DNA of 64,000 bases from Ciceribacter sp. L1K22 (lineage in GTDB: Bacteria; Pseudomonadota; Alphaproteobacteria; Rhizobiales; Rhizobiaceae), in the NCBI RefSeq assembly GCF_017599385.1, contig NZ_JAGFPK010000001.1, positions 188,177 to 252,176 of the forward strand, in the 5' to 3' direction. Numbering within the stretch: the first letter of the stretch is position 1; each line of letters opens with the position of its first letter. The notes under the pieces are model-generated. The model had not been told where the DNA came from. It saw only the letters and a list, made by a program, of their open reading frames with translations, and did not search any database. The translations under genes were made by a program, and so were the position numbers. Below, piece by piece: positions 12,769 to 27,801 of the stretch.

Positions 12769-14112
12769 ATGACCAAGCCCGCCATCAGTGAGGCAGAGCT
12801 GGAGATCGAAAGGCTCATGGGCTTGCACCCAAAGGGCTATGATCTCTCGTTGACGCGCATCACCCGTCTTCTTGAAACGCTGGGAAATCCCCAAAAGCGT
12901 TTGCCTCCCGTCATCCATGTGGCCGGAACAAACGGGAAAGGCTCTGTGTCGGCTTTTTGCCGTGCACTGTTGGAAGCCGGCGGCATGAGCGTGCACGTTC
13001 ATACCTCACCGCATCTTGTCCGATGGCACGAGCGATATCGCATTGGTCGAAAAGGCGAACCCGGACGCTTTGTGGAGGACGCAAAGTTTGCCGATGCTGT
13101 TCGGCGCGTGGCTGAAGCCAATGCGGGCCAGCAAATTACCGTATTCGAAATTCTGACAGCTGTCGCATTCCTGCTCTTCTCCGAGGAACCTGCTGATGTT
13201 GTGATTATGGAAGTGGGCATGGGGGGCCGCTTTGACTGCACTAACGTCATCGAACAACCCGCTGTTTCAATCGTCATGCCCATATCTCTCGACCATCAAG
13301 CCTATCTCGGTGATCGCGTGGAACTGATCGCCGCGGAGAAGGCGGGGATAATGAAGCGCGGCTGTCCAGTCGTGATTGGTCATCAGGAGTTTGACGCCGC
13401 GCTGGAGGTTCTTATGACGACCGCTGAGCGACTGTCCTGTCCCATGAGTGTCTATGGACAGGATTACTTCGGTCACGAGGAGTTCGGCCGATTGATCTAT
13501 CAGGATGAGTTCGGTCTCTCCGATCTTCCGTTGCCGCGGCTTCCCGGTCGTCATCAGTACGCAAACGCAGCAGCGGCCATCCGTGCGGTGAAGGCGGCAG
13601 GCGTCGTATTGACCGAAGACATTGTCGCCAAGGCTATGACGACGGTTGAATGGCCGGGACGACTTCAGCTTCTGACAGAGGGAGCGCTCTATGCAGCAGC
13701 TCCAGACGGCTGTGAGTTATGGGTCGACGGCGGCCACAATCCCGGCGCCGGAGAGGTGATAGCCGAGGCAATGGCGAGTTTCGAGGAACGCACATCGCGC
13801 CCACTTGTTCTCATCATCGGAATGCTCAACACCAAGGACCCGACCGGCTATTTCCAAGCCTTTGCAGGTATCGCGTCTCACGTTTACACCGTTCCCATCA
13901 GGGGAACGGATAATGCCCTTGACCCAGTTGTCCTGGCGGATGCTGCTATGGATGCTGGGCTGGTGGCGGAGCCCGTGTCGAGCATCCTGGACGCTCTGCA
14001 CGCCGTAACGGAGCGACAGGAGAAGGATGTTGCCGCCCCCCGCGTCATGATCGGTGGGTCGTTGTATCTGGCAGGTAATGCCCTTGCAGACAACGGCACT
14101 CCCCCGAATTGA
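12769..14112 (+). CDS. folC: Bifunctional folylpolyglutamate / dihydrofolate synthase
   Basis: Adds glutamate to folates and joins dihydropteroate to glutamate. It has 447 residues and belongs to the Mur ligase fold. The P-loop is VAGTNGKGSVSAF near residue 48, the metal-site region is EVGMGGRFDCTNVI, and the C-terminal ligase domain holds WVDGGHNPGAGEV. It follows accD by 39 bases. By eye its third codon positions are less G/C-rich than those of trpFBA-accD. A hairpin follows its stop. Confidence 0.97.
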   Translation: MTKPAISEAELEIERLMGLHPKGYDLSLTRITRLLETLGNPQKRLPPVIHVAGTNGKGSVSAFCRALLEAGGMSVHVHTSPHLVRWHERYRIGRKGEPGRFVEDAKFADAVRRVAEANAGQQITVFEILTAVAFLLFSEEPADVVIMEVGMGGRFDCTNVIEQPAVSIVMPISLDHQAYLGDRVELIAAEKAGIMKRGCPVVIGHQEFDAALEVLMTTAERLSCPMSVYGQDYFGHEEFGRLIYQDEFGLSDLPLPRLPGRHQYANAAAAIRAVKAAGVVLTEDIVAKAMTTVEWPGRLQLLTEGALYAAAPDGCELWVDGGHNPGAGEVIAEAMASFEERTSRPLVLIIGMLNTKDPTGYFQAFAGIASHVYTVPIRGTDNALDPVVLADAAMDAGLVAEPVSSILDALHAVTERQEKDVAAPRVMIGGSLYLAGNALADNGTPPN

Positions 14113-14113
14113 A

Positions 14114-14135
14114 GAAGCCCGGCGTACCGGGCTTC
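14114..14135. terminator. Hairpin between convergent folC and trxA
   Basis: GAAGCCCGG at 14114-14122 pairs perfectly with CCGGGCTTC at 14127-14135 around a 4-base loop. There is no clear T-run on either strand, so it may be a weak bidirectional terminator or an RNA 3-prime stabilising hairpin. Confidence 0.5.
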
Positions 14136-14164: not shown

Positions 14165-14485
14165 TTAAACTGCTCCAGCGATCCAGCTTGACAAAGCTGT
14201 TTTGGGGGCCGCTCCGACCTTGATGTCGGCAACCTCGCCACCCTTGAACATCGCAAGAGTCGGAATAGACCGAACGCCGAATTTGGCGGCGAGCTCGGGG
14301 TTTTCATCGATATTCAACTTGGCGATCTTGACCTTTCCAGCCATCTCCTGCGAGATTTCTTCCAGGCTCGGTCCGATCATCTTGCAGGGGCCGCACCATT
14401 CAGCCCAGAAATCCACGATGACAGGCTCAGCAGATTCAAGAACCTCCGCCTGGAAATTTGCGTTGTCGACTTTAACCGTAGCCAT
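14165..14485 (-). CDS. trxA: Thioredoxin
   Basis: A 106-residue cytoplasmic thioredoxin with the redox motif WCGPC in [15 protein letters not shown] and the cis-proline region RSIPTLAMF. The ATG at 14485 gives the family length; longer in-frame starts would add an unrelated arginine-rich stretch. It is the last gene of the minus-strand block, 76 bases after addA. General protein-disulfide reductant; a conserved neighbour of addAB and folC in rhizobia. Confidence 0.96.
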
Positions 14486-14561
14486 GATTGCTCCTTTCGC
14501 GGTCGAAGTATCTGACAGACATGTGAGAACGTTGGCCCGCCTTTTCAATGGGGCCTGTATT

Positions 14562-17500
14562 TCACAGTGTGTTGAGCTCGGCAAGCGTGCTGTCCAGCAA
14601 CTCAGGTGGAAGCTCAAGCAGCTTCGCCTCTTCGGTGTATATCAGCAAGCCGTCAATTAAATGGCCTGGGTAGATGGGTTTCAGAAGTTCCCGATATATC
14701 GCCAGCTGAGCTCTATGAGTGAAGGGGACGTGAGAAAGATCGCGTGGTGGAATACGGTTCGTCTTGTAGTCGATCAGGATGACCCGTCCCTCGACCACGG
14801 CAAGCCTGTCGATTCGTCCACTCACCGCCCGGTCTTCACCAGCGATCATCAGAGTTCCCATGATGGATACCTCTGCCTGTCCGTAGGACGACATTATCTT
14901 CCTCATATCGGGGTGCTGGATAAGTTGGGCTATCTGCTGAAACAGTTGCAGGCGTTGCACTGTTGTCCAGAACCGCGCCGCGCGCGAAATGTAACGCTCC
15001 GCCGCGGCCATCCGATCTTGTTCCGACACGTCTGGTAAAACCTGCAGCAGTCGATGAACCAGGCGTCCTTTTTGCAAGGCTCTGTCGCTCTCCTGCTTCG
15101 GCGCGAAGAGCCTTGATCCGATGATAGCGTCACTAGGCGCATCCTCAACAAAAAAGCCGACGCCCGAAGGGCTCAGGGGACGCGGAAGTTGGCTCGGAGG
15201 TGGCAATGGCGTGAGCAAGGCGGGCGGGAGTTCATATTGTTGCAATCTGGCAGGTGGAGGTTCGTGTCCTTCAATTCGAGCAGCCTGTTCAGGCAGCTCC
15301 CAGACGATGCCGTCCCACTGGTCCCCAGCTGTGGTGAAACGTTCCTCCCGACAAAACCTCGACTCTGCACGCAACGCGGTACTCACCATGTCGTGCCATA
15401 TGTCGCTCGGCCTCTGCTTACCGCAGTATCCGCAGATGACGAGGCGATCGGCTGCTCGGGTCATGCCCACATAAAGAAGGCGCCTGTACTCATCTTCGGC
15501 CAGCTGGCGAATCCGGTCACGATCGAACTGCGAGACGCATGTCTCCAGGTTTTTCGTCGGCACCCAGATTGGCACTGTCTTGCCGTGCTCTGTTGTCGCA
15601 AACCGGAACCGCGGCAGATGGTTGCTATTGAAGGGTCGACCCCCACCATCGACAAGGAAGACAACCGGGGCTTCCAGACCCTTCGAGGCATGGACGGTCA
15701 TAATCCGTACCTCGTCACGGGAGGAGTCCTGCTCTCGCTTGATTTCCGGCGCTTCGGTTTCGAGCGCGGCAACAAATGCCTGGAGGCCTGGCATGCCTCC
15801 GCTCTCGTGATCTAGAGTGAGGTTGGTGAATTCGTCGAGAACGTCCGCTGCTTCTGATCCTAATCGACCCAGAAATTTGCGTCTGCCCCCAAAGGCGCCA
15901 AGCACATGGGCGTAGAAGCCATGGACGGACGACCGTCGCGAAAGCTCGACCAGTTGCAGCAGCTCTGATGTGACCCCGTGCCAGACGCTGTCTGCATCCG
16001 TTTCAGCCAACGTCAGGATTCTCTGCCAAAGGGAATATCCTTCCGGACGGAACGCGGCTGCTTCATAAAGCTCCGTTTCGGTGAGATTGAAAAGTGGGCT
16101 TTTCAGGAGCGAAGCAAGAGACAGATCGTCGGACGGCAGCAATACGAAACGGCCAAGCGCAAGAAGATCTTGAATGGCTATGTGTGTCGTCAGCTTTAAT
16201 CGATCCGCGCCTGCCACGGGGATATTGCCGCGACGCTTCAGCTCCCGCGTAAGTGCTCCCACAAAGCTGTCACGTTTCCGAACAAGCACGAGAATGTCTC
16301 CTGCGCGGATGGCGCGTTCGACGCCATCGTCGACGATTTTGCCCTGCCTGATCATCTGCTCCATTGTTTCGGCGATACGCCGCGCGACGATCGCCGGAGG
16401 AGCGTTCTCAGGGGTCGAATCGAAGGGAGCAGTCCAATCATCGCTTTTCTGCGTCGCGTCCGCAGCGATCATGTCCCAAACTTCGACGCGGCCGGGGTGA
16501 CCGATACGGTTCGAGACATGAACGATCGCTTCGGACGACCCGCTCAAGCCACGAGCGTTGTCCTGGAAACGGAAGACCTGGTCGACCGCTGAAAGAACCG
16601 CTCCGGTTGACCGGAAGGAAAGCGGAAGGCGTACGGCACTGAAATCCAGGCCCCCCTGGCTGACGTCTCTTTCCGTAGCGCGGCTTTCCTCTGAAAAACG
16701 TTCGGGTCTAGCGCCCTGGAACGAGTAGATCGACTGCTTCTCATCGCCCACAGCGAAGAAGGTACGCAAGCCCGGACGAGCGCTCTCGCCCGAAAAGAAA
16801 TCGTCACGAAGCGATCGTATTACCGACCATTGTACGGGACTGGTATCCTGAGCCTCGTCGACGAGGATATGGTCAATACCCTGATCCAGCTTATAGTGAA
16901 CCCAGGGGGCGGCGTCGCTTTTGGTCAGGAGCTCCGCTGTTCGCGCAATCAGATCTTCGAAGTCCAACTGACCCCGGACCTTCTTCCGATACTCATAATC
17001 GCCAATCAGGAATTGAGCGAGGACCAGAGCCGCCGAAGTTGCTTCGTATGTCTGTACAAGTCGTACTCGCTCGCGGCACTGCAACAAGTGTTCTTGCGCC
17101 TTGGTGAACCAGTCGCCGACATCGATCACCTGCCGCTGCATTTCCGCCGTAGCAACTGTTTTCACACTTTTCGGCGCCCCAAGCTTTGTCAGAAGTGCGT
17201 TCTCTAGCCGGGCAAGTTTCAGCATAGGATCTGTTTCGCCAGTCGCCGCACGCAATTCGGAGGCGACTGCTTGAGCATTGGCTCCGCCGATTTTGTCGGC
17301 AAGCTCAAGATAAACCGCAAGATTTTCGCCTGAGAGGCCGGCCAATGGCCAAACAGCCTCAGCGGCCGACCGAACCGTCTCGGTCTCCTTCAAGCCGAGG
17401 CGACCACGGAGCACTTGGTTGAAACCGTCTCCGCGCTCCGCCGCGGAAAGGAAATCCCGCAATGACTGCCGATTGCTGACAATATCAGCAAGAAGAGCTT

Positions 17501-18104
17501 CAAGGCCGTGTTCGTCAGCCAAGGAAAGAACGTGCTCGAAGGCGCGCACGAGTTCCGGATTCTGCCTCGCAGAGGCGAGCGTCAGAAGCGAACGCTTGAC
17601 ATCATCAAGAAGCGTTGAGGCCGCCCTATCCTCCAGGACGGTAAAATGGCCCGCCACATTGGCCTCAAGCGGAAACTGGTGCAGCAGCGCCTCGCAGAAT
17701 GCGTGGATGGTCTGAATCTTGAGACCGCCTGGAGTTTCGAGAGCCTTGGCGAAGAGTTGTCGAGCGTCGCGTAGCTTGGCTTGGTTCGGAGACTGTCCCT
17801 CGATTTTCTCGATCCGCAGGGCGAGTTGTTGATCATCCAGTCTCGCCCACTCGGCCAGCCGTGCAAAGACGCGATTGGACATCTCAGATGCGGCTGCTTT
17901 CGTGTAGGTCAGGCAAAGAACGGAAGAGGGCCTTGCCCCAGACAGCAGCAGTCTGATGACTCGTTGCGTTAGCACATGCGTCTTGCCAGATCCGGCGTTC
18001 GCTGACACCCATGCGGATCGTCGGGGATCGGAGGCGAGGGCTTGCTGCGCTGTTGTCCAGTCCGCCGGATTCAGTCCCTCCGGCATCATTGTAACATCAC
18101 TCAT
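14562..18104 (-). CDS. addA: Double-strand break repair helicase-nuclease AddA
   Basis: AddA is the UvrD-type helicase and nuclease subunit of AddAB, the alphaproteobacterial counterpart of RecBCD, which processes double-strand ends for RecA. It has 1180 residues. The Walker A motif [10 protein letters not shown] is at about residues 35-44, the DEAQDTSP box and [15 protein letters not shown] (helicase motif V region) follow, and the C-terminal nuclease motif is ILIDYKTNR. The ATG at 18104 overlaps the end of addB by 8 bases. An upstream extension of 46 residues inside addB has no conserved features, so I rejected it. Confidence 0.96.
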
Positions 18105-21100
18105 CGCCGACCTCGTCGGCTTCGGCGGTCGACCATTCCGCCACGCGCGCAAGATGATCGTAGTCTCCGCCGAGATCGCCTTGCTGGAAAGGTATGAGAC
18201 GGGACACAAAGCCGCGCTCGCCGCTAAACAGAAGCGCGACAAAGCGGTTTAGCTGTGATGCGGCGTCCGATCCCAGGTCTGACGCGGACTTTACTTTGTC
18301 GCCCTTGCCGCTCTGCTCATTGTTCACTGCCTCAGCCCCAAAACGCGCACCCGGACGAAGACGCACATACAGTAGATCGTTCGGTTTGCGGATGCCGACG
18401 TTTTTAAAGGCACCGGCCTGAAGCGCGGCTGCCTCGAGAGGCAGCTGCGGATCGAGAAGGCTTCTTGCCTGAGCCACGCTGGGGCTGGAGCCAGTCTTGT
18501 AATCGATTATATCCGCAAGACCGTCGATCCGAATATCGATTCTGTCGGCAACGCCCGTCAGACGGATACCAGCACCCTCTAGTTCAAAGCCTGCGGGAAC
18601 CTCTGTAAACGACTGGCTATATGATCCCTGCCGATTTTGCTCCCATTGCAAAAATGGATCGGCAATGCCCCAGAAGCGGTGACGCCAGACAACATCTATA
18701 TGCGGCGGAAGCTTCGCGGCCGCGAAGCACTCGTTAATGATTCGCTCGACCTCGGATCGCTCCACCTCATTTCGTGAGAGCATCGCCTCGCGCACAAGCC
18801 GTTCCACTATCTTATGGTAGAGTGTGCCTCGTTCAGCAGGTCCCGGTTCGCAGCTGAAGGGGGCGATCGGTTCAAGTCTGAGGATACGTCTCGCATAAAT
18901 CGAATAAGGATCACGCCGCAGTCGTGCCACCTCGCTGAAGGAGTACTGGCGTGGCTGCAAGGCCGCATCGGGCCTTGGCTCGGGACGTCGCGCCGCAGGC
19001 TGGGCTTCGCCTTCATCGAGCATCGCAACGAACTGTCTGTACCGATCACCACGTAGCTGGAGTTCTTCAGCAAGACCGTCACCGGCAAGTGCAAGCAGTC
19101 GCTGCAACCAGCGGGAGGCGACGGTGGGTGTGTTCCCTTGGCGCAAGGAGCGCGAAAAAATCAGCCTCCTGGTGCCGCACGCCATTTCGAAGTCGTGCGC
19201 CAGCTGGCCGGTCCGCCGCTCGGGTGGCTGAAGACCGATGTCTGTCTTCATCGTCCGCGACAGAAAGGGATTGTTCGTCGTCTGCGTTGGCCAAGAGCCT
19301 TCATTCAGACCTCCCAGAACCATCGTGTCGACATTCTGGAGGCGGGCCTCGAGGGTACCGAAGATAAAGACCCGAGGGTGCCGCATGGCTCTTGGCTTCA
19401 CGGCCTCGCCCGCACTAAAAGCTTCGACGAGATCGATCCACTCGAGACCGGTGGCTTCCAGCTGTCCGTCCGTTTCGATGATCTGCTCGAGCAGGTTCGC
19501 CAGCTTCTCGCCCGCCTCGTCACCCCATAAGCTGGATAGGTCGCCTCGATCATCAATGCACACGGCTTCCAAGGCCTGACCGGTAAGGACTGCCCACTCG
19601 GAGAGCGGTAGTCGACGGTCTGCGGCATTCTTAAGATAGGCGAGTGCGTGGTCCATCAGCGTGGCAAGAGTGGCGGCCCCGGCCACCGCTTCTTCGCCGA
19701 GGTTCTTTCTCCAAAGGGGTGGATGCCTCTCCTGCGACTGTGCCTTCAGTTGATCTTCAAGAAGGCTCCGCACGTCTTTTATGTTCGCGTTTTTTGTCCC
19801 GCCTCGCAGCGCCAACAGCTCCAGCATCTCGGCCGATGTCACGATGTCGTGTTCGTTGCAGCCGAAACGTGCGAGCGGATGTTTTAACAATCCGGCGATC
19901 GTCGTCGGATTGCCGGGCTGCAAGCACGCGTCGAGCAGCAGACCAAGGATCGTCCCCTGCCTGCTTCCTGTGAGCGGTGTGCCGGCGGTGTCATCGGCGG
20001 CAATGTGATAGCGCGCCAGTTCTGCGACAACCCGCTTGGCAAGGTTCCGATCGGGAGTGACAAGCGCCACCCGGCTTTCGCCGGCGGCGCCGACATCCTC
20101 CAGCGCCAGACGGAGCGCGGTGGCGATGGCAGCCGCCTCTTCCCGCTCGTTAGCGGCTTCGATCAGGCTGACATCCTTAAAGGCATTCGAGATCCGCCCC
20201 GGATCGAAGCTGGACCGCCATTCCATCCAACTGTCGGTGGCGCCGGCCGGCGTTAACGCACGCGAAATGATCTCTGCCCGATCCGCCAGGTCGTCGTCCG
20301 GCCGTCCAAGTGCGGTGACATCATTTCGATGAACTCCCAACTGTTTCAGCAATTGGGACAATCCGTACTGTGGATGACTGCGCGAGGCAGGATCAGGAAT
20401 ACTCATGTCCCCGAGTTGAGCTCCAACGAGTGACCAATGAGCGTCGGGCATCGTCTGATCAAGACCCGGCAAGACCACGATACCTTCCGGTATCGATGCT
20501 GCTGCCGCAATCAACTCAGCTGCTGCGGGAATGGAGCCCGTGGATCCTGCAATAATGACGGGGTCTCGGCTATCGAGCGCAAGTAGCCGTGCGGCTTCAC
20601 CCCGGAGTTGGGCGTTGCGATGTCGCACGGGGGAAGAGCGGTTCAGTTCGTTCAGTCGATCGGGCCAGAACGTTCTCGCTATCTTGAGGAACTCCAGCGT
20701 CAGCTGCCACCATCCGGCAAAGTTGCCGGCCTCGATGGTCTCCAGGAGATTCCAGTCGGTTTCTTCCGTCTCGATCGCATCGATCAGTTCGGCGAGCGCC
20801 CTCGCGAGCCACACCGCGTCCGCGGGGCTTGCGGGCGCCACGAGCGGGGTATCAGAATGAAGACTGCGGACGATTTCGGGCAGCTGGTTCCGCCAGGCGA
20901 GAATCAGCCGTCCGAGTTCGATGAGGCGCGCCGTATTACTGATCGGTGGGTAGAAATCGAGAATATCAGGCGCGTCCACATCGAAGTAACCAAGATCTTC
21001 TTCCGTTTCGCCGAGCGGCTTTATGATCGGCAGTATGGCGGTCTGACCACCCATGAGATCGACAAACTCCGACCGCAATTCGCGGGCTGCGCGACGGGTG

Positions 21101-21258
21101 GGCAGATAAATCGTTATCTTGGCGAGAGCCAGCGGATCGGTCGGATCATGCCGAAAGCCTCGGATAAGCCGGCCGTTGAGCAAGCCACTCGCCAGCTCCC
21201 GGAGGAAAGGCACACCCGGGGCGATGGTCATGATCTGTCCCGCTCGCCCGCGCGTCAT
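18097..21258 (-). CDS. addB: Double-strand break repair protein AddB (alphaproteobacterial type)
   Basis: Partner of AddA, 1053 residues. The N-terminal helicase-like region begins with the TIAPGVPFLRELA and LPTRRAARELRSEF segments. A central VLGGLNEGSWP motif marks the RecC/AddB-like core, and the C-terminal exonuclease domain carries DIIDYKTGSSPS. Its ATG lies 1 base after the stop of the nucleotidyltransferase gene, so translation is probably coupled. A second possible start is 27 bases further in. Confidence 0.95.
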   Translation of the reverse strand: MTRGRAGQIMTIAPGVPFLRELASGLLNGRLIRGFRHDPTDPLALAKITIYLPTRRAARELRSEFVDLMGGQTAILPIIKPLGETEEDLGYFDVDAPDILDFYPPISNTARLIELGRLILAWRNQLPEIVRSLHSDTPLVAPASPADAVWLARALAELIDAIETEETDWNLLETIEAGNFAGWWQLTLEFLKIARTFWPDRLNELNRSSPVRHRNAQLRGEAARLLALDSRDPVIIAGSTGSIPAAAELIAAAASIPEGIVVLPGLDQTMPDAHWSLVGAQLGDMSIPDPASRSHPQYGLSQLLKQLGVHRNDVTALGRPDDDLADRAEIISRALTPAGATDSWMEWRSSFDPGRISNAFKDVSLIEAANEREEAAAIATALRLALEDVGAAGESRVALVTPDRNLAKRVVAELARYHIAADDTAGTPLTGSRQGTILGLLLDACLQPGNPTTIAGLLKHPLARFGCNEHDIVTSAEMLELLALRGGTKNANIKDVRSLLEDQLKAQSQERHPPLWRKNLGEEAVAGAATLATLMDHALAYLKNAADRRLPLSEWAVLTGQALEAVCIDDRGDLSSLWGDEAGEKLANLLEQIIETDGQLEATGLEWIDLVEAFSAGEAVKPRAMRHPRVFIFGTLEARLQNVDTMVLGGLNEGSWPTQTTNNPFLSRTMKTDIGLQPPERRTGQLAHDFEMACGTRRLIFSRSLRQGNTPTVASRWLQRLLALAGDGLAEELQLRGDRYRQFVAMLDEGEAQPAARRPEPRPDAALQPRQYSFSEVARLRRDPYSIYARRILRLEPIAPFSCEPGPAERGTLYHKIVERLVREAMLSRNEVERSEVERIINECFAAAKLPPHIDVVWRHRFWGIADPFLQWEQNRQGSYSQSFTEVPAGFELEGAGIRLTGVADRIDIRIDGLADIIDYKTGSSPSVAQARSLLDPQLPLEAAALQAGAFKNVGIRKPNDLLYVRLRPGARFGAEAVNNEQSGKGDKVKSASDLGSDAASQLNRFVALLFSGERGFVSRLIPFQQGDLGGDYDHLARVAEWSTAEADEVGDE

Positions 21259-21259
21259 G

Positions 21260-21988
21260 TCATCGGTCCTCCTCGTGTTCGCGCATCGTGTGTTCTGCAG
21301 CTACAATTGCCTCAGGCGTGCCGACGGTGATCCAGTGACCGGAGAGCTCTATCCCATACAGACGACCCGCAGAGATCGCCTTGTCAAAATAGAGGTTGAG
21401 ATTGAATGCTTCGGATGGAGCATCGGAAAAAAGCGCTGGATCAAGAACCAGCGCTCCCGCGTACACAACCGGATGTTCGTCGCCATCGACATATCGGGTA
21501 AGCTTGCCCGTCGGTGCCATTGAAAAATCGCGCTTTTCATTGTGCCCCGTTGTCCGTTCGGGTGGCACGCAAAGGAGCGCCATGTCCATGCTGCCAGGAT
21601 CGAAAAATTCCGCAAGCCGGTGAAGATTGGAGGACGATGACGTTTCGCCGATCCAGAAAAGATCGGCATTCATCACGAATACGGGCGCATCTGCGAGCTG
21701 CTGGAGTCCCTTGACCAGACCGCCGCCCGAGTTCAGCAGGCCTTGCCGCTCATCCGATACTAATACTTGCAGGCGGGAGTAGGTGGATAAGTGCGCCATC
21801 ATCGCATCCGCATGATGATGGACGTTGACGACTGCTCGTTCCACACCCGCCTCGGCGAGCAGATCCAGTGCGTAGTCGATCAACGGCTTTCCAGCAACCT
21901 GTATGAGCGGTTTAGGCGTCGTGTCCGTGAGAGGACGCATGCGCGTGCCAAGCCCAGCGGCCAGCACCATCGCTTCGGTGATTTTCAT
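21260..21988 (-). CDS. NTP-transferase, probably MurU-like MurNAc-1-phosphate uridylyltransferase
   Basis: A 242-residue sugar-nucleotide pyrophosphorylase fold with the signature AAGLGTRMRPLT and KPLIQVAGKPLI at the N-terminus, and the metal-binding NADLFW segment. In Pseudomonas, MurU makes UDP-MurNAc from MurNAc-1-phosphate produced by the kinase AmgK. The upstream gene here encodes a kinase of just that type, so the same anhydro-muropeptide recycling step is inferred. Mannose-1-phosphate guanylyltransferase is the main alternative. Start: ATG 21988, or TTG 21997 overlapping the upstream stop. Confidence 0.82.
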   Translation of the reverse strand: MKITEAMVLAAGLGTRMRPLTDTTPKPLIQVAGKPLIDYALDLLAEAGVERAVVNVHHHADAMMAHLSTYSRLQVLVSDERQGLLNSGGGLVKGLQQLADAPVFVMNADLFWIGETSSSSNLHRLAEFFDPGSMDMALLCVPPERTTGHNEKRDFSMAPTGKLTRYVDGDEHPVVYAGALVLDPALFSDAPSEAFNLNLYFDKAISAGRLYGIELSGHWITVGTPEAIVAAEHTMREHEEDR

Positions 21989-21993
21989 GTCAG

Positions 21994-23520
21994 TCAAGGC
22001 TCTGATTCGGCTACTTCAATTCCAGCCTTTATGCACCACTCGCGCAAGGGCGACATTATGGGATGCTCCAGGGCAACTGCCAGGTGCCAGAGGGTGCGCG
22101 ACATATGGCGCATGTAGTCCGGTTTCCGGTCCCGCTGAAGCAGCCTGACCCAGAGTCCGTTGAGCTTGCAGGCTCGCTGAGCCGACATGATGTGCCACGA
22201 TTTGACGAACGATTCCTCGTCAAATGATCCATGTTCGCGCCTCAGGGTGAAATACCGTGCCATCAGCATGTCCATCAGCGGTCTTCTCACCGTCACGCGG
22301 GCATCCTGGACAATCGAAACCAGGTCATAGCTGCTGGGACCAATCATGGCGTCCTGAAAGTCGATCAGCCCAACGCGTGCGTGACCGTGCTGTGCCTCTC
22401 GCCAGATGATATTGGGAGAATGGAAGTCGCGCAGGACCACCGTTTTTTCGCAGGTCCCCAACTCGTCGATCAGATGGTCCCATATCGCCACGAAGTTTGC
22501 ACGCTCCTGCGGAGAAGCGACCTCGCCTCCGCGCTTCCATGGAATGTGCCAATCCAGAATCAGCTCCGCCTCGATCTTCATCGCGGACCGGTCGTAGTTC
22601 GGGATATGATGCGTGCGCCCGTCATCAAGTGGGATCTCTGCGGGAAAGGTGTTTGAGTGTAGCCAAGCCAGACACTCGACCGCAGCTTCGTACCGCTCCG
22701 GAACCGGCAACCCTTGATCGTCAAGGATGGAGCCGCTTCCAAAATCCTCGATCACGAGAATCCCTTGGTCCAGATCAGCGGCATGGATCTCGGGCGCGGC
22801 AAAGCCTTTGTCCCGCAACAACCGGTCGATGGCGACAAACGGACGAACATCCTCAGCAAGATGAACGAGTTGCGAATAGGGCTTTCCATCGCGTATGGGC
22901 GGACCGTCCGGCTGGCGGGGAGAATCCATCAACACCAGTGTCTTCGAGTCGGGCATATGGAGGCGTTCATAGGCCCTCGTCGATGCGTCTCCAACGAGGA
23001 ACCGACGCTTTACTCCCCTGAAGCCGTGCTCATCTAGAAATGAGCGGATTGCCCGGAGCCGGATTAGCCGATCAAGTTTCTGGGACGGACCGCTAATGTC
23101 GAGGCGGCGCCCTTCAGCCTGATGGGTCAACTCCATCCATAATGTTGTTGCCGGCAGAGCGCCCGCGGCGCGATCCGGCCATTCAACCAACACGACACCA
23201 TCTTCCAAAGCCTCATCGAGACCAAGTTCGTCCAGTTCGGAGACGTGTGTCAGCCGATAAAGATCGAGATGGTATAGAGGAATTCTGACGTCATAAGACT
23301 GGACCAGAGTGAATGTGGGGCTCGGTACATCGAGCATCGGATCATCCCCCACCGCGCGAATGAGGGCGCGAGCGAGCGTGGACTTTCCCGCGCCTAGATC
23401 GCCTGAGAGCGCAATGCAATCACCCGGCTTTACCAAGAGCGCCAAATCCTCCCCGAACGCGATGGTCGCGGATTCGTCAGGAAGGAAGAGATTGAAGCGG
23501 GAAGGTGAGTTCTGGATCAT
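21994..23520 (-). CDS. tsaE: TsaE ATPase fused to an AmgK-like aminoglycoside/sugar phosphotransferase
   Basis: A 508-residue two-domain protein. Residues 1-150 are TsaE, the ATPase of the tRNA t6A37 complex, with Walker A GDLGAGKSTLARAL, the PSPTFTLVQSY switch and the HLDLYRL motif. Residues 160-500 are an APH-type kinase: the Brenner-like motif VLRDFHSPNIIW is followed by GLIDFQDAMIGP (metal-binding Asp). The second half resembles AmgK, which phosphorylates MurNAc/GlcNAc at the anomeric carbon. It is followed directly by the murU-like gene and overlaps the end of divL by 4 bases. Such fusions are known in rhizobial genomes. Confidence 0.93.
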   Translation of the reverse strand: MIQNSPSRFNLFLPDESATIAFGEDLALLVKPGDCIALSGDLGAGKSTLARALIRAVGDDPMLDVPSPTFTLVQSYDVRIPLYHLDLYRLTHVSELDELGLDEALEDGVVLVEWPDRAAGALPATTLWMELTHQAEGRRLDISGPSQKLDRLIRLRAIRSFLDEHGFRGVKRRFLVGDASTRAYERLHMPDSKTLVLMDSPRQPDGPPIRDGKPYSQLVHLAEDVRPFVAIDRLLRDKGFAAPEIHAADLDQGILVIEDFGSGSILDDQGLPVPERYEAAVECLAWLHSNTFPAEIPLDDGRTHHIPNYDRSAMKIEAELILDWHIPWKRGGEVASPQERANFVAIWDHLIDELGTCEKTVVLRDFHSPNIIWREAQHGHARVGLIDFQDAMIGPSSYDLVSIVQDARVTVRRPLMDMLMARYFTLRREHGSFDEESFVKSWHIMSAQRACKLNGLWVRLLQRDRKPDYMRHMSRTLWHLAVALEHPIMSPLREWCIKAGIEVAESEP

Positions 23521-26117
23521 TCCGCAGCAGCGACTGACCGGGGTTGGCTGGATGATGGGATACGGCAGGTTACAGTAGTTCCAAGTCCAGGATCGCTGGC
23601 AATCGATACCTTGCCGTTGTGAAGGCTTACAAAACTTTCGACGATAGAGAGACCCAGACCGGCACCGCTTCGCCTGCCGCCCTTACCGTTGGATGAAAAA
23701 CGGTCGAAGATGTTGTGCAACATGTCCGGCGCTATACCGCATCCCCGATCCTTGACTGCGAATAGAAAATCTGAGCCTTCGCGCCAGCATTTCAATTCAA
23801 CGGCCGTCGAAGCCGGTGCAAAGTTCACTGCATTGGTCAGGAGCTTGATGAGTATTTGCTTCAACCGCTGCTGATCGGCTGTAATCGTGCCCAGGCTTGG
23901 CGGTGCCGAAATCTCCAGCGTCACGTTCGCTTCCTGAAGACGATCGGTCATTTGCATCGCGACATCATCAAGGAGGTCATCGAGATCGATCTCCTCGTGG
24001 TTCAGGCGCATGATGCCCGCATCGACAGTTGCGAGGTCAAGAATGTCATTGACGATCGTCAGGAGCACCGACGATGACGTCGATATATGATCTATGTATT
24101 CGGCCTGTCGCTCGTTCAGCGGCCCGACGGACGGCGTTTTCAAAAGGTCCGTGAAGCCTATGATATTCGTCAACGGTGAGCGCAGTTCGTAGGACATGTG
24201 TTGGACGAAATCGTTCTTGAGTTCGTCCGCCTTTCGCAAGGCCTCGTTCTTTTCCAGCAATGCGCGCTCCGCCCTAGCGCTGTCCGTCATGTTGACAAAT
24301 GTCAGCATCGTCTGAGCGTTCGGCAGCGGGATGACAGCGTAGTCGAGTATGAGACCAGAATGCAGTTCGAGCGTACCTTGGAGGGAGGGTCTTTCGTCCT
24401 CGAAGCTCGTGATCATGCGTCCGAAGGTCTTCCAGCCGTCGGGCTTGTCGTAAGAGTTCGCGCACGCCGCTTCGATAGTTTGAATATGGGTATCCGGTTT
24501 GGCCACGGCCTCGCTAATACCCCACAAGGCGCGGAAAGCAGGATTGGATAGACGCAGACGTCCATCTGGACCGAAAACAGCCACGCCTTCCGAAAGATGA
24601 TCGATGGTTTCGCCCTGAACACGCAAGAGAGTGTTGTATTTCGTTTCGAGATCGACCTGTTCGGTCAGATTTTCGAAGACCCAGGTCGCACCGCCCTGTG
24701 GGTGCGCTGCCGTGATGACGCGCAAGGTTTGGCCATTTGGCAGATGCCAGAGATCGGTCCTCGTCTCAATGGATCGGTAGACTGCCAGCGCCTGTTCTTT
24801 CCAGTTTTTCCAGTTCAGTTGCTCCGGCAGCTTCTTGTCAGTTCGCAGTCGGTCAAGAAGTTCGCCGTTCTCCGGTTTTCCTTCCAGGAAGGGCATATCC
24901 AGAGCCCAAAGGCGGGCAAACGCCTGGTTGTAGAACTGCAGTCGCCGCTGTGCATCGAATATTGCCACGGGTGTTGCCAGGTGGTCCAACGTATCCGCAT
25001 GGCTCTTCAGCGTTCTCTGAAGTTCCTCCCGAAGAGCCTCGTTCTGGCTGATGTCGATGGCGAGACCGCAGCCGCCATCTGGCGTCTTCGTATCGACGAT
25101 GTCGAGGAACGCGCGTCGTCCACGCACCACTGCCGATATGGTTCCATGGAATGGTGAATCTATCCCGGTTTGTGCCCTGACAGTGGCGCGGTCGATCGTG
25201 CCCAAAAGTTCTTGCTGCGACGCAATTACCTGCTGTGGGCTTTGCGCTTCCACGGCCTCGCTATAGGCATGGTTTACCCAGATCAGACGTCCGTCCGGAT
25301 CACGCCGCCACGCCGGCTGATCGATTGAGTTTAGAAGCGTTTCGAAAGCCGTGATCGAAGACAGTAGACGTGAACGTTCGATTTTGAGCTCCGCAAGCTC
25401 GGCGCGAAGATTGTTCAAGGCCACGAAGCTCGTGAATGCTCTGCCTCCCGACAGGCGGCCCTGAACTTCAAGCAATTCGCTGCGGTTGGTTTCGATCACA
25501 AGATCGAATGTCTGGGCTTCCGAACGCAGCGCCTCGATTGCATGTTCCAACTGCATCGCGGAAGCCGAATTGAGCCAGCGACCAAATGCAAGGAAGTCAG
25601 TATCGCCTTGCGGAGCTCCGCTATCAGCGGGGAGCTGGCCCACAAATTCGGCTTTGCCGGTCCGGCCATCCCAGATCACGATACGCCTGTTCTTTTCCGC
25701 TATCAGCGCCTCATAACGTGACAGGCGTTGATTGGCGTCCGCGAGAAGGCCGCGGACTTCCTCGGTTTCTGCCTCGATTCCGGCTTTTTGCCTGATCAGC
25801 CAAAGAACGGAAAAGAGGCTGGCGGACAAAAGACCGAGAACAATCGAAAGTCCGACCATCTCCGCCGATCCGAACAGATTGCCCGTCTTCGTCAGGATTG
25901 CCGCGTCGCCGCCGAATGCGGCTGGGGAAGAAGCGCCCAAGGCGCTGCTGCCCAGGAGGAGCGCTGTAAGCCGTTGGCGCCATCGCGACCATTTCCGACT
26001 CTGCGGCAGAGAAATACCGCAAGAACCGTCAAGGCACGCAACGTGATGCGCAAAATTTGTCTGCTGCCCGGATGGCGACTCACGCCATTCCGACCTCGTA
26101 TTCTTCTTCACCGACAT
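23517..26117 (-). CDS. divL: DivL-type tyrosine pseudo-histidine kinase (cell-cycle regulator)
   Basis: An 866-residue membrane protein. A hydrophobic N-terminus and a membrane segment (about 88-108) precede a coiled coil, three PAS-like regions (about 262-360, 377-490, 505-615), a HisKA dimerisation helix and a HATPase domain with DRGCGIAPD and GAGLGLSIVE. The H-box reads QHMSYELRSPL: the phospho-accepting histidine is replaced by Tyr643 (codon 24189-24191). That change defines DivL, which in Caulobacter controls the CckA-CtrA pathway together with DivK. The ATG at 26117 has GGACGGAGA before it; an upstream TTG is less likely. Confidence 0.9.
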   Translation of the reverse strand: MSVKKNTRSEWRESPSGQQTNFAHHVACLDGSCGISLPQSRKWSRWRQRLTALLLGSSALGASSPAAFGGDAAILTKTGNLFGSAEMVGLSIVLGLLSASLFSVLWLIRQKAGIEAETEEVRGLLADANQRLSRYEALIAEKNRRIVIWDGRTGKAEFVGQLPADSGAPQGDTDFLAFGRWLNSASAMQLEHAIEALRSEAQTFDLVIETNRSELLEVQGRLSGGRAFTSFVALNNLRAELAELKIERSRLLSSITAFETLLNSIDQPAWRRDPDGRLIWVNHAYSEAVEAQSPQQVIASQQELLGTIDRATVRAQTGIDSPFHGTISAVVRGRRAFLDIVDTKTPDGGCGLAIDISQNEALREELQRTLKSHADTLDHLATPVAIFDAQRRLQFYNQAFARLWALDMPFLEGKPENGELLDRLRTDKKLPEQLNWKNWKEQALAVYRSIETRTDLWHLPNGQTLRVITAAHPQGGATWVFENLTEQVDLETKYNTLLRVQGETIDHLSEGVAVFGPDGRLRLSNPAFRALWGISEAVAKPDTHIQTIEAACANSYDKPDGWKTFGRMITSFEDERPSLQGTLELHSGLILDYAVIPLPNAQTMLTFVNMTDSARAERALLEKNEALRKADELKNDFVQHMSYELRSPLTNIIGFTDLLKTPSVGPLNERQAEYIDHISTSSSVLLTIVNDILDLATVDAGIMRLNHEEIDLDDLLDDVAMQMTDRLQEANVTLEISAPPSLGTITADQQRLKQILIKLLTNAVNFAPASTAVELKCWREGSDFLFAVKDRGCGIAPDMLHNIFDRFSSNGKGGRRSGAGLGLSIVESFVSLHNGKVSIASDPGLGTTVTCRIPSSSQPRSVAAAE

Positions 26118-26251
26118 CCCCGGTCTGTCTCCGTCCCATGAGCCGCATCTCGACAAGACATCCCAACTTCACCGGAGCGCCAGTGCGCGTAACGGCGAAT
26201 CAAGTTCTAAAACATTACTGCCTAAGGGAATCCCAGTGAAGGGTTGGGCTC

Positions 26252-26287
26252 AAAAAAGAAGCCGCGGCCTTTGTCAAGGGCGCGGCT
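26252..26287 (-). terminator. Rho-independent terminator of ahcY
   Basis: On the minus strand AGCCGCG (plus 26281-26287) pairs with CGCGGCT (plus 26260-26266), with further inner pairing, and is followed by TTC and six T residues (plus 26252-26257). It closes the chvI-to-ahcY side of the block and separates it from divL. Confidence 0.85.
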
Positions 26288-26316: not shown

Positions 26317-27717
26317 TTAATAGCGATAGTGGTCGGACTTGAACGGACCCTGGGGAGTCACGCCAATGTAGCTTGCCTGCTCACTCGAGAGTTCCGTGAG
26401 CTTCACACCGAGCTTTGCCAGATGCAGGCGGGCAACCTTCTCGTCCAGATGTTTCGGCAGGACATAAACCTTGTTCTCGTACTTCTCGCCCTTCGTGAAG
26501 AGCTCGAGCTGTGCAAGAACCTGGTTGGTGAACGAAGCCGACATGACAAAACTCGGATGTCCTGTGGCGTTACCGAGGTTCAGGAGGCGCCCCTCGGACA
26601 ACAGAATCATGCGGTTCCCCTGCGGAAACTCCACCATGTCGACCTGCGGCTTGATATTGGTCCACTTGAGATTGCGAAGGGCAGCAACCTGAATCTCATT
26701 GTCGAAGTGGCCGATGTTTCCAACGATCGCCATGTCCTTCATCTGCCGCATGTGATCGAGGCGGATGACGTCCTTGTTGCCGGTCGTGGTGATGAAGATA
26801 TCCGCAGTCGAAACGACATCTTCCAGCTGGACAACCTCGAAACCATCCATAGCCGCCTGCAGTGCGCAGATCGGGTCCACCTCGGTGACCTTCACTCGGG
26901 CACCGGCTCCACGAAGGGATGCGGCCGATCCCTTTCCGACGTCGCCGTAGCCACAGACAACCGCAACCTTTCCGGCCATCATGACATCGGTTGCCCGCCG
27001 AATTCCGTCGACGAGAGACTCCTTGCATCCGTACTTGTTGTCGAACTTCGATTTCGTAACGGAGTCGTTGACGTTGATCGCCGGGAAGGGCAGCAGGCCC
27101 TTTTGGCTTAGCTGATACAGCCTGTTTACGCCGGTGGTGGTTTCCTCAGTCACGCCACGGATGGCGTCGCGCTGCTTGGTGAACCAACCCGGCGAAGCCG
27201 CGAGCCGCTTCTTTATCTGGGCGAACAGGATTTCTTCTTCCTCGGAATGAGGGCTCGACAGAACGTCCTCTCCGGCCTCCGCGCGTGCGCCAAGCAGGAT
27301 GTACATGGTTGCATCGCCGCCGTCATCGAGGATCATGTTGCTGAAACCGCCGTCGGTCCATTGGAAGATGCGATCCGTGTATTCCCAATAGTCGGTCAGG
27401 CTCTCGCCCTTCACAGCGAACACCGGTATGCCGGACGCCGCGATTGCAGCGGCTGCATGATCTTGCGTCGAAAAGATATTGCACGACGCCCACCGAACTT
27501 CGGCGCCCAGCGCAACGAGCGTCTCAATGAGCACCGCGGTCTGGATCGTCATGTGGAGCGAGCCAGTGATGCGGGCACCTGAAAGCGGTTTTGCCTCGCC
27601 AAACTCCTCACGGCAGGACATCAGTCCTGGCATTTCGGTTTCGGCGATGTCGATTTCCTTCCGGCCAAAATCGGCAAGCGAAATATCCGCTACGACGAAG
27701 TCACTTGTATGGCTCAT
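26317..27717 (-). CDS. ahcY: S-adenosylhomocysteine hydrolase
   Basis: Splits S-adenosylhomocysteine into adenosine and homocysteine, closing the SAM methylation cycle. It has 466 residues, with the substrate region [15 protein letters not shown], the NAD-binding loop [11 protein letters not shown], and the C-terminal KSDHYRY that contacts the neighbouring subunit's NAD. The ATG at 27717 begins MSHTSDF; an upstream in-frame extension is not conserved. Its leader (27718-27872) carries a probable promoter and an ATAAAGA repeat operator, described separately. Confidence 0.98.
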
Positions 27718-27801
27718 CTGTTTCTCCAGCCTGTACGCTGGGGGACGGTCCTCGATCACCCATGCGTATGTGTTTCCTCTTTAGGAAGAGGGTTGATAGC
27801 T

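Follow-up and report, generated by a model that had tools for sequence, protein, structure and literature searches.

The divL-led gene run

In the alphaproteobacterium Ciceribacter sp. L1K22, divL, a fused tsaE-amgK gene, a murU-like gene, addB and addA probably form one operon, which would be transcribed from a promoter in the gap between ahcY and divL and coupled translationally at the gene overlaps; trxA would be reached by read-through, probably with an additional promoter of its own. These genes were analysed in a stretch of 64,000 nucleotides (nt) of contig NZ_JAGFPK010000001.1 (forward-strand positions 188,177 to 252,176), referred to as the window, whose own numbering is used below. 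The reading is built on gene order and spacing, on the terminator downstream of ahcY, on the conservation of the divL leader and on the unraised 3'-end conservation in divL and murU, from which we infer a single mRNA in this organism; the core unit most likely runs from divL to addA.

All genes of the run lie on the reverse strand. The PAS-containing pseudo-histidine kinase gene divL (23517–26117) starts with ATG at 26117, with an in-frame TTG at 26156, and overlaps tsaE-amgK (21994–23520) by 4 nt (ATGA). The latter is a single fused gene encoding a TsaE ATPase (residues ~14–143) and an AmgK-like sugar kinase (residues ~159–496), and it is followed by the gene of a MurU-like nucleotidyltransferase (21260–21988), which either starts with ATG 5 nt past the tsaE-amgK stop codon or, from an alternative TTG at 21997, overlaps it by 4 nt. 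Then addB (18097–21258) follows at a spacing of 1 nt and overlaps addA (14562–18104, ATG at 18104) by 8 nt. Between the addA stop at 14562 and the ATG of trxA (14165–14485) at 14485 lie 76 nt, and trxA is outside the tight coupling. The upstream neighbour ahcY (26317–27759, reverse strand) lies upstream of a terminator and outside the coupled run. The original prediction had described divL, the tsaE-kinase gene, the murU-like gene, addB and addA as overlapping or nearly touching, in a run from the divL ATG at 26117 to the trxA stop at 14165; coordinates, spacings and end points were all confirmed in the sequence.

The same joints were compared in 13 of the 14 further genomes that the genus offered (one fragment was skipped), with gene starts extrapolated from tblastn alignments and not codon-checked. 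The spacing was −7 or −13 at divL/tsaE, −4 to 9 in 10 genomes and 79 to 124 in 3 genomes at tsaE-amgK/murU, −2 to 29 at murU/addB, and −8 or 4 at addB/addA. Because the tight spacing is kept in these 13 genomes, it exceeds chance.

Conservation of the gene order

With AddB as the anchor, loci were collected from the window's own order, Hyphomicrobiales to judge by the named relatives (81 genomes searched, 79 with AddB, 77 above the cut-off, 60 loci fetched) and from other alphaproteobacterial families (96 genomes of the class searched, 87 with AddB, 74 above the cut-off, 60 loci fetched, one per other family); both sets were hand-chosen, mostly omitting contig-edge, split or weak matches. A third set, the named loci, comprised the best 80 of at least 586 and leans to close relatives, and two of its genomes also occur in the genus set (L193/L262 and L224/L263).

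The original prediction had staked itself on conservation of the order outside close relatives, and this was found: in 49 of the 60 order loci and in 25 of the 60 other-family loci, addB was preceded by a divL of the same orientation, counts that rule out a purely local gene order. No divL was found despite at least 6 kilobases (kb) of room in 8/60 and 31/60 loci, respectively. The full order ahcY-divL-tsaE-amgK-murU-addB-addA-trxA was seen in 69 of the best 80 named loci, and in 4 more the view lacked just ahcY or trxA; these 73 include loci of Roseibium, Stappia, Microvirga, Bosea and Aurantimonas. Among the genus relatives the order was full in 12/13, the remaining one being without only trxA in view. 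The divL-addA block is probably an old alphaproteobacterial cluster, and it is widespread in the order and class samples.

Rearrangements were observed at single loci. In L076, ahcY-divL-tsaE-amgK-murU forms a block whose orientation is opposite to that of addB-addA-trxA, which shows that the murU/addB joint is breakable. In L234 (Aureimonas pseudogalii) tsaE-amgK precedes divL, and in L054 addA precedes addB. At two Bartonella loci (L228 and L231) murU was not found, nor was amgK at L228, and divL, tsaE, addB and addA are retained, a possible loss of the recycling step.

TsaE and AmgK were fused at all 50 assessable order loci (window included) and were separate genes in 38 of 42 loci outside the order. 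In addition, an oppositely transcribed pyridine-nucleotide reductase gene was found at 26/60 other-family loci (12 between divL and tsaE, 13 upstream of tsaE where divL was not found, and 1 unplaced), two of these matches being weak (L060, 80 bits; L105, 141 bits), and at none of the 60 order loci or the best 80 named loci. Six gap open reading frames that were scanned gave three Pyr_redox_2, one LysR, one SNase-like and one without a family. At 8/60 other-family loci divL lies directly before tsaE, with at most 210 nt between them. On an AddB tree (FastTree), the joined-versus-split state needs 6 changes, where joined means a gap of at most 210 nt measured from start codons guessed from profile positions, a procedure whose guesses for the window overshoot by 18 to 258 nt at 5 of 7 joints. 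The tree is unrooted, and the ancestral state with the reductase gene and a split arrangement is deduced. We propose that the ancestor probably kept divL and a tsaE-amgK-murU-addBA operon adjacent under separate promoters, and that the old cluster takes operon form in Hyphomicrobiales, where no gene intervenes and divL abuts tsaE. In the families keeping the reductase gene, tsaE-amgK-murU-addBA would start from its own promoter.

Identity of the products

The divL product carries PAS_7, HisKA and HATPase_c domains (Pfam), with Tyr in place of the phospho-acceptor His (MSYELRSPL). Its best solved structure was 4q20, Sensor protein DivL (E = 3.5e-42; runner-up, 1.8e-28), and a query with the DivL N-terminus gave one match in its own genome. 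Tyr occupied the acceptor position in all 50 DivL found in the order loci and in 20/26 of the other-family set, where the rest were 3 His, one of them a low-scoring match, 1 Lys and 2 gaps (the class-wide count of 21/27 is this 20/26 plus the window). With Tyr at the acceptor, a PAS sensor part and an HATPase domain, the window product is a DivL by its sequence features.

The TsaE domain scored above both cut-offs (PF02367, 122.3 bits; TIGR00150, 108.7 bits). The AmgK domain fell below the NCBIfam NF045698 cut-off (226.7 vs 500 bits), which was reached by 0/81 genomes in the order sample, and the MurU-like product fell below that of NF045697 (214.6 vs 370 bits, E = 1.2e-63). The best solved structure for the latter was 4y7t (Nucleotidyl transferase, E = 1.6e-33), followed by 8hhd, which has a sequence deposited under the name MurU as well. 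On these matches both are clear homologues though sub-threshold, and the kinase domain may act like AmgK, by homology. The second gene thereby joins a tRNA-modification ATPase to a likely recycling kinase in one chain. AddB (TIGR02786, 1175.9 bits), AddA (TIGR02784, 1422.2 bits) and TrxA (TIGR01068) were all above their cut-offs.

AnmK, the enzyme upstream in the AmgK/MurU route, was found once above the cut-off in the own genome and in 76/81 genomes of the order sample. AmgK was absent from 4/81 and AnmK from 5/81, and both were absent only in G145; with joint absence in only 1/81 genomes, co-absence of AnmK and AmgK as proof of the recycling pathway is unsupported. A second AmgK-like open frame (355 amino acids) lies in the own genome outside the window (G000:C1:399417-400358), and G139 and G112 also have an extra one.

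Start of the run between ahcY and divL

An intrinsic terminator lies after ahcY at 26252–26287 (reverse strand), with a hairpin of 11 pairs in the window and 12 in the genus consensus, followed by T6. The 66-nt segment gave −18.7 kcal/mol (z = −3.3). Across 13 sequences, 94.9% of the cells pair and 8 of the 12 pairs change on both sides, values of pairing and covariation that 0/500 shuffles reached; the rows of this alignment were chosen by the pattern TTGACA + T6, which 12 of the 13 genus loci matched and L258 did not. For this genus, the covarying terminator rejects an unbroken unit of ahcY with divL. In a custom scan with coding windows as the control, terminators no more than 250 nt from the ahcY stop were found in 45/75 named loci (from the best 80), 9/36 order loci and 3/20 other-family loci, compared with 0/375, 1/180 and 2/100 control windows, respectively; a consensus-based search had missed the ahcY terminator, presumably through its loop limit of 8 bases and a mismatch in the window's stem.

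Downstream of the terminator, a conserved promoter-like block, GGCAGTAATGTTTTAGAACTTGATTCG, lies at 26196–26222 (reverse strand), where a sigma-70 consensus scan gave no match. It is followed by the divL leader, GGATGTCTTGTCGA..ATGCGGC..GGACGGAGACAGACC, at 26118–26163 (reverse strand), which is strongly conserved in Rhizobiaceae. Ten-base conservation bins, computed leaving out L155, were 0.97 and 0.92 at the promoter-like block and 0.96, 0.98, 0.92 and 0.91 in the leader before the ATG, and lower between the two (0.72, 0.66, 0.54 and 0.82). A wider leader alignment comprised 47 loci and the window (46 distinct genomes), all of which carry a GACGGAGACA[GT]ACC block followed by ATG, and conservation within this alignment is conditional on that block. 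The leader had no Rfam match and was rejected as a known structured RNA. In five Rhizobium-group leaders (L181, L192, L195, L200 and L209) a palindromic repeat-like sequence (~GAGCATGATGTCGTCCGAAAACCG..TTTTCGGCATCATGCTC) replaces the GTCTTGTCG block, and the start-proximal block is kept. Since the covarying terminator and the conserved leader part ahcY from divL, the run in this genus would start at divL.

GANTC sites upstream of divL

A GANTC (CcrM-type) site lies at 26197–26201, 80 nt upstream of the divL ATG, and a second one at 26228–26232, both on the reverse strand. GATTC stood at the aligned place of the first site in 39/48 leaders, and 28/48 had at least two GANTC. Gap counts were made in the loci with both genes on one strand and a gap within limits (31/60 order and 13/60 other-family loci). 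In the order, 67 GANTC were counted in the ahcY-divL gap, where seven palindromes of equal base composition averaged 19 (Wilcoxon p = 7e-6; 25/31 loci exceeding their own control), and the excess was also seen in other families (17 vs about 5 in 13 loci, p = 0.009) and in the non-Rhizobiaceae named loci (98 vs 19 in 35 loci from the best 80). Because the gap is enriched in GANTC, we infer, more weakly than the single mRNA, that GcrA and CcrM methylation time the divL promoter; the window divL has in its promoter region the GANTC sites expected under such control.

It may well be instead, though we incline against it, that GANTC before divL is a general intergenic feature, or that the promoter answers another regulator such as NtrX, the sites having no timing meaning. 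Intergenic enrichment of GANTC is stated for most alphaproteobacterial chromosomes (PMC8116508), and divL is on a list of Sinorhizobium meliloti promoters intended for the mapping of NtrX sites (PMC9223101). Simple specificity is also opposed by the named Rhizobiaceae (from the best 80), in which GANTC, numbering 60, was only slightly ahead of TGNCA with 55 (the conserved ahcY terminator itself contains TTGACA) and TCNGA with 45, and in which 8/38 had no GANTC in the gap. Against this alternative, three control gaps were without excess: addA-trxA (17 vs about 17, or 0.50 vs 0.50 per locus, 34 order loci), upstream of ahcY (18 vs 22, 37 order loci) and reductase-tsaE (0.33 vs 0.40 per locus, 15 loci).

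Since the GANTC-rich region heads the run, wall recycling and AddAB may be driven by the divL promoter, and this promoter is possibly timed by GcrA and CcrM. Going further, we put forward only tentatively, as a scenario that would more probably fail than hold, that loss of the reductase gene joined divL to tsaE-amgK-murU-addBA, which would have placed muropeptide recycling and double-strand-break repair under a GANTC-rich, replication-timed (GcrA/CcrM) promoter, with the output of AddAB and AmgK/MurU following fork passage. The operon itself is ordinary; the promoter region is the part of interest.

End of the run and internal signals

In the genus, the addA-trxA gap measures 61–165 nt and contains a conserved promoter-like block (TTGAAA ... 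CACATGT; 14519–14548, reverse strand, in the window). TTGAAA was invariant in 13/13 aligned sequences (window and 12 genus genomes), and a CATAT-like block also lies in the gap; trxA probably has its own promoter. A GC-rich hairpin after trxA (GAAGCCCGG TACG CCGGGCTTC; 14114–14135, reverse strand) is the probable end of the run, its segment giving z = −1.7 with 11/200 shuffles folding equally well. Beyond the hairpin, a folC-like gene with Mur-ligase domains (12769–14112, forward strand) points towards trxA in convergent orientation.

Fourfold-site identity in the last 30 codons did not rise in divL (p = 0.92) or murU (p = 0.71); the values were p = 0.08 for tsaE-amgK, p = 0.09 for addB and, nominally up before trxA, p = 0.009 for addA (all uncorrected). 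In the all-window test the maxima of genes other than divL were unremarkable (p = 0.32 to 0.56), and the sigma-70 consensus scan overall gave 4 sites vs 6.6 in shuffles. Of the single transcript that had been predicted, the part from divL to addA is thus sustained by the overlaps, the lack of room for a terminator at the joints, the unraised 3'-end conservation in divL and murU, and reverse transcription–polymerase chain reaction (RT-PCR) in Brucella abortus, whereas its extension to trxA is weaker, given the 61–165 nt gap and the promoter-like block.

Discussion

Several observations weigh against a divL-led operon. Eleven of the 60 order loci were without a same-strand upstream divL (8 although 6 kb or more was available, 2 with too little room, and the inverted L076). 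The terminator scan was positive in only 9 of 36 order loci, and for this reason a start at divL is best supported in Rhizobiaceae. In Brucella, read-through from bvrR across ahcY to trx is reported (PMC9491525); in the window, the terminator behind ahcY would at least reduce it. Inside the run, fourfold sites of divL codons 631–660 are unusually conserved (0.66 vs 0.45; maximum-over-gene p = 0.008, 13 genomes). This stretch, at about 24140–24230, covers the pseudo-acceptor helix ~0.6–0.7 kb before tsaE, and it could reflect codon-level constraint or an internal regulatory element or promoter, thus leaving room for an internal signal. A promoter-like match (9/12) just before murU at 22083–22055 (reverse strand) is at chance level. 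The nominally raised addA 3' end is not the highest window of that gene (all-window p = 0.32).

Some of these observations would also suit gene-order inertia, in which the genes are neighbours by descent, loosely co-transcribed, each half having its own promoter, with no regulatory tie to DivL. We think this unlikely. It fits the common adjacency of ahcY to divL although a terminator parts them in the genus, the 12/60 other-family loci that are split by an opposite-strand gene and are neighbours nonetheless, the inversion in L076 of the block up to murU against addBA, and the conserved synonymous stretch in divL, which might act as a promoter of the downstream genes. It does not fit the overlaps and near-contacts kept across the genus, the last 30 codons of divL and murU without raised synonymous conservation, or the Brucella RT-PCR. 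The case of ahcY, a common neighbour of divL that a terminator separates from it in the genus, does mean that adjacency by itself is no proof of the predicted functional tie between DivL dosage and recycling or break repair. That the run is the tail of a long bvrRS/chvGI-PTS-ahcY operon governed by that response regulator is quite improbable: the 16-gene Brucella RT-PCR, the binding of BvrR-P to its own operon (PMC9491525) and the same-strand window open reading frames upstream of ahcY with histidine-kinase, HPr-kinase-like (below cut-off), EIIA and HPr domains speak for it, but in the genus a covarying terminator and a conserved leader stand between ahcY and divL, and RT-PCR cannot separate read-through from the main transcript.

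If, under the divL-led operon, the divL promoter were methylation-timed and drove the whole run, Hyphomicrobiales would time wall recycling and the AddAB nuclease-helicase with replication through operon structure alone, and families with divL and the repair operon adjacent yet separately transcribed would offer the natural comparison. Even without timing the published picture is extended, the divL-addA block being widespread and its second and third genes resembling recycling enzymes. The interest for follow-up is that a GANTC-rich divL promoter region fronts recycling and repair genes that probably start separately in many other families. Compared with the openly licensed literature, the run starting at divL in the genus, the reductase gene pattern and the GANTC-rich divL promoter region look new.

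Comparison with published systems

The co-transcribed run itself is already known from Brucella abortus, in which RT-PCR across the joints placed 16 genes from bvrR to trx-1 in one operon, including ahcY-divL-tsaE-"guanylyltransferase"-addB-addA-trx, and BvrR-P binds its own operon (Rivas-Solano et al. 2022, PMC9491525). The genes from ahcY to trx and their order match the window. The Brucella operon, however, is transcribed as one long unit starting at bvrR, and in it genes of unknown function separate ahcY from divL and addA from trx, whereas the window has a covarying terminator before divL and a promoter-like block before trxA, and the divL-addA part of the 16-gene operon is common in our sample. 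The original prediction had called the combination of functions unexplained. This holds only by half: the operon was already published, although the two wall-recycling genes are named TsaE and mannose-1-phosphate guanylyltransferase there, their recycling role being unrecognised in the table of that paper.

In Caulobacter crescentus, amgK (CCNA_03649) and murU (CCNA_03650) encode the kinase and the uridylyltransferase of N-acetylmuramic acid recycling under consecutive locus numbers (PMC13046382), and DivL, TsaE and AddB do not occur in the main text of that paper; in the window, by contrast, AmgK forms a fusion with TsaE, and the fused gene is joined to divL. In Agrobacterium tumefaciens, a related species, the DivL homologue is named as Atu0027 (PMC3577659), the operon not being described in the part considered. 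Many Rhizobiales genomes have two divL homologues, of which one is conserved near the origin of replication (PMC8116508); that source, likewise in the part considered, does not describe the operon, and the window genome gave one match to the N-terminal DivL query. Lastly, the GcrA regulon includes divL in C. crescentus and Brevundimonas subvibrioides, with the same predicted for most of a 23-species set, and GcrA control of divL is predicted in few of 13 species across the class, Caulobacterales included (PMC7987155). In comparison with that work, as far as its considered part goes, the divL promoter region of Hyphomicrobiales is GANTC-rich and would head an operon.

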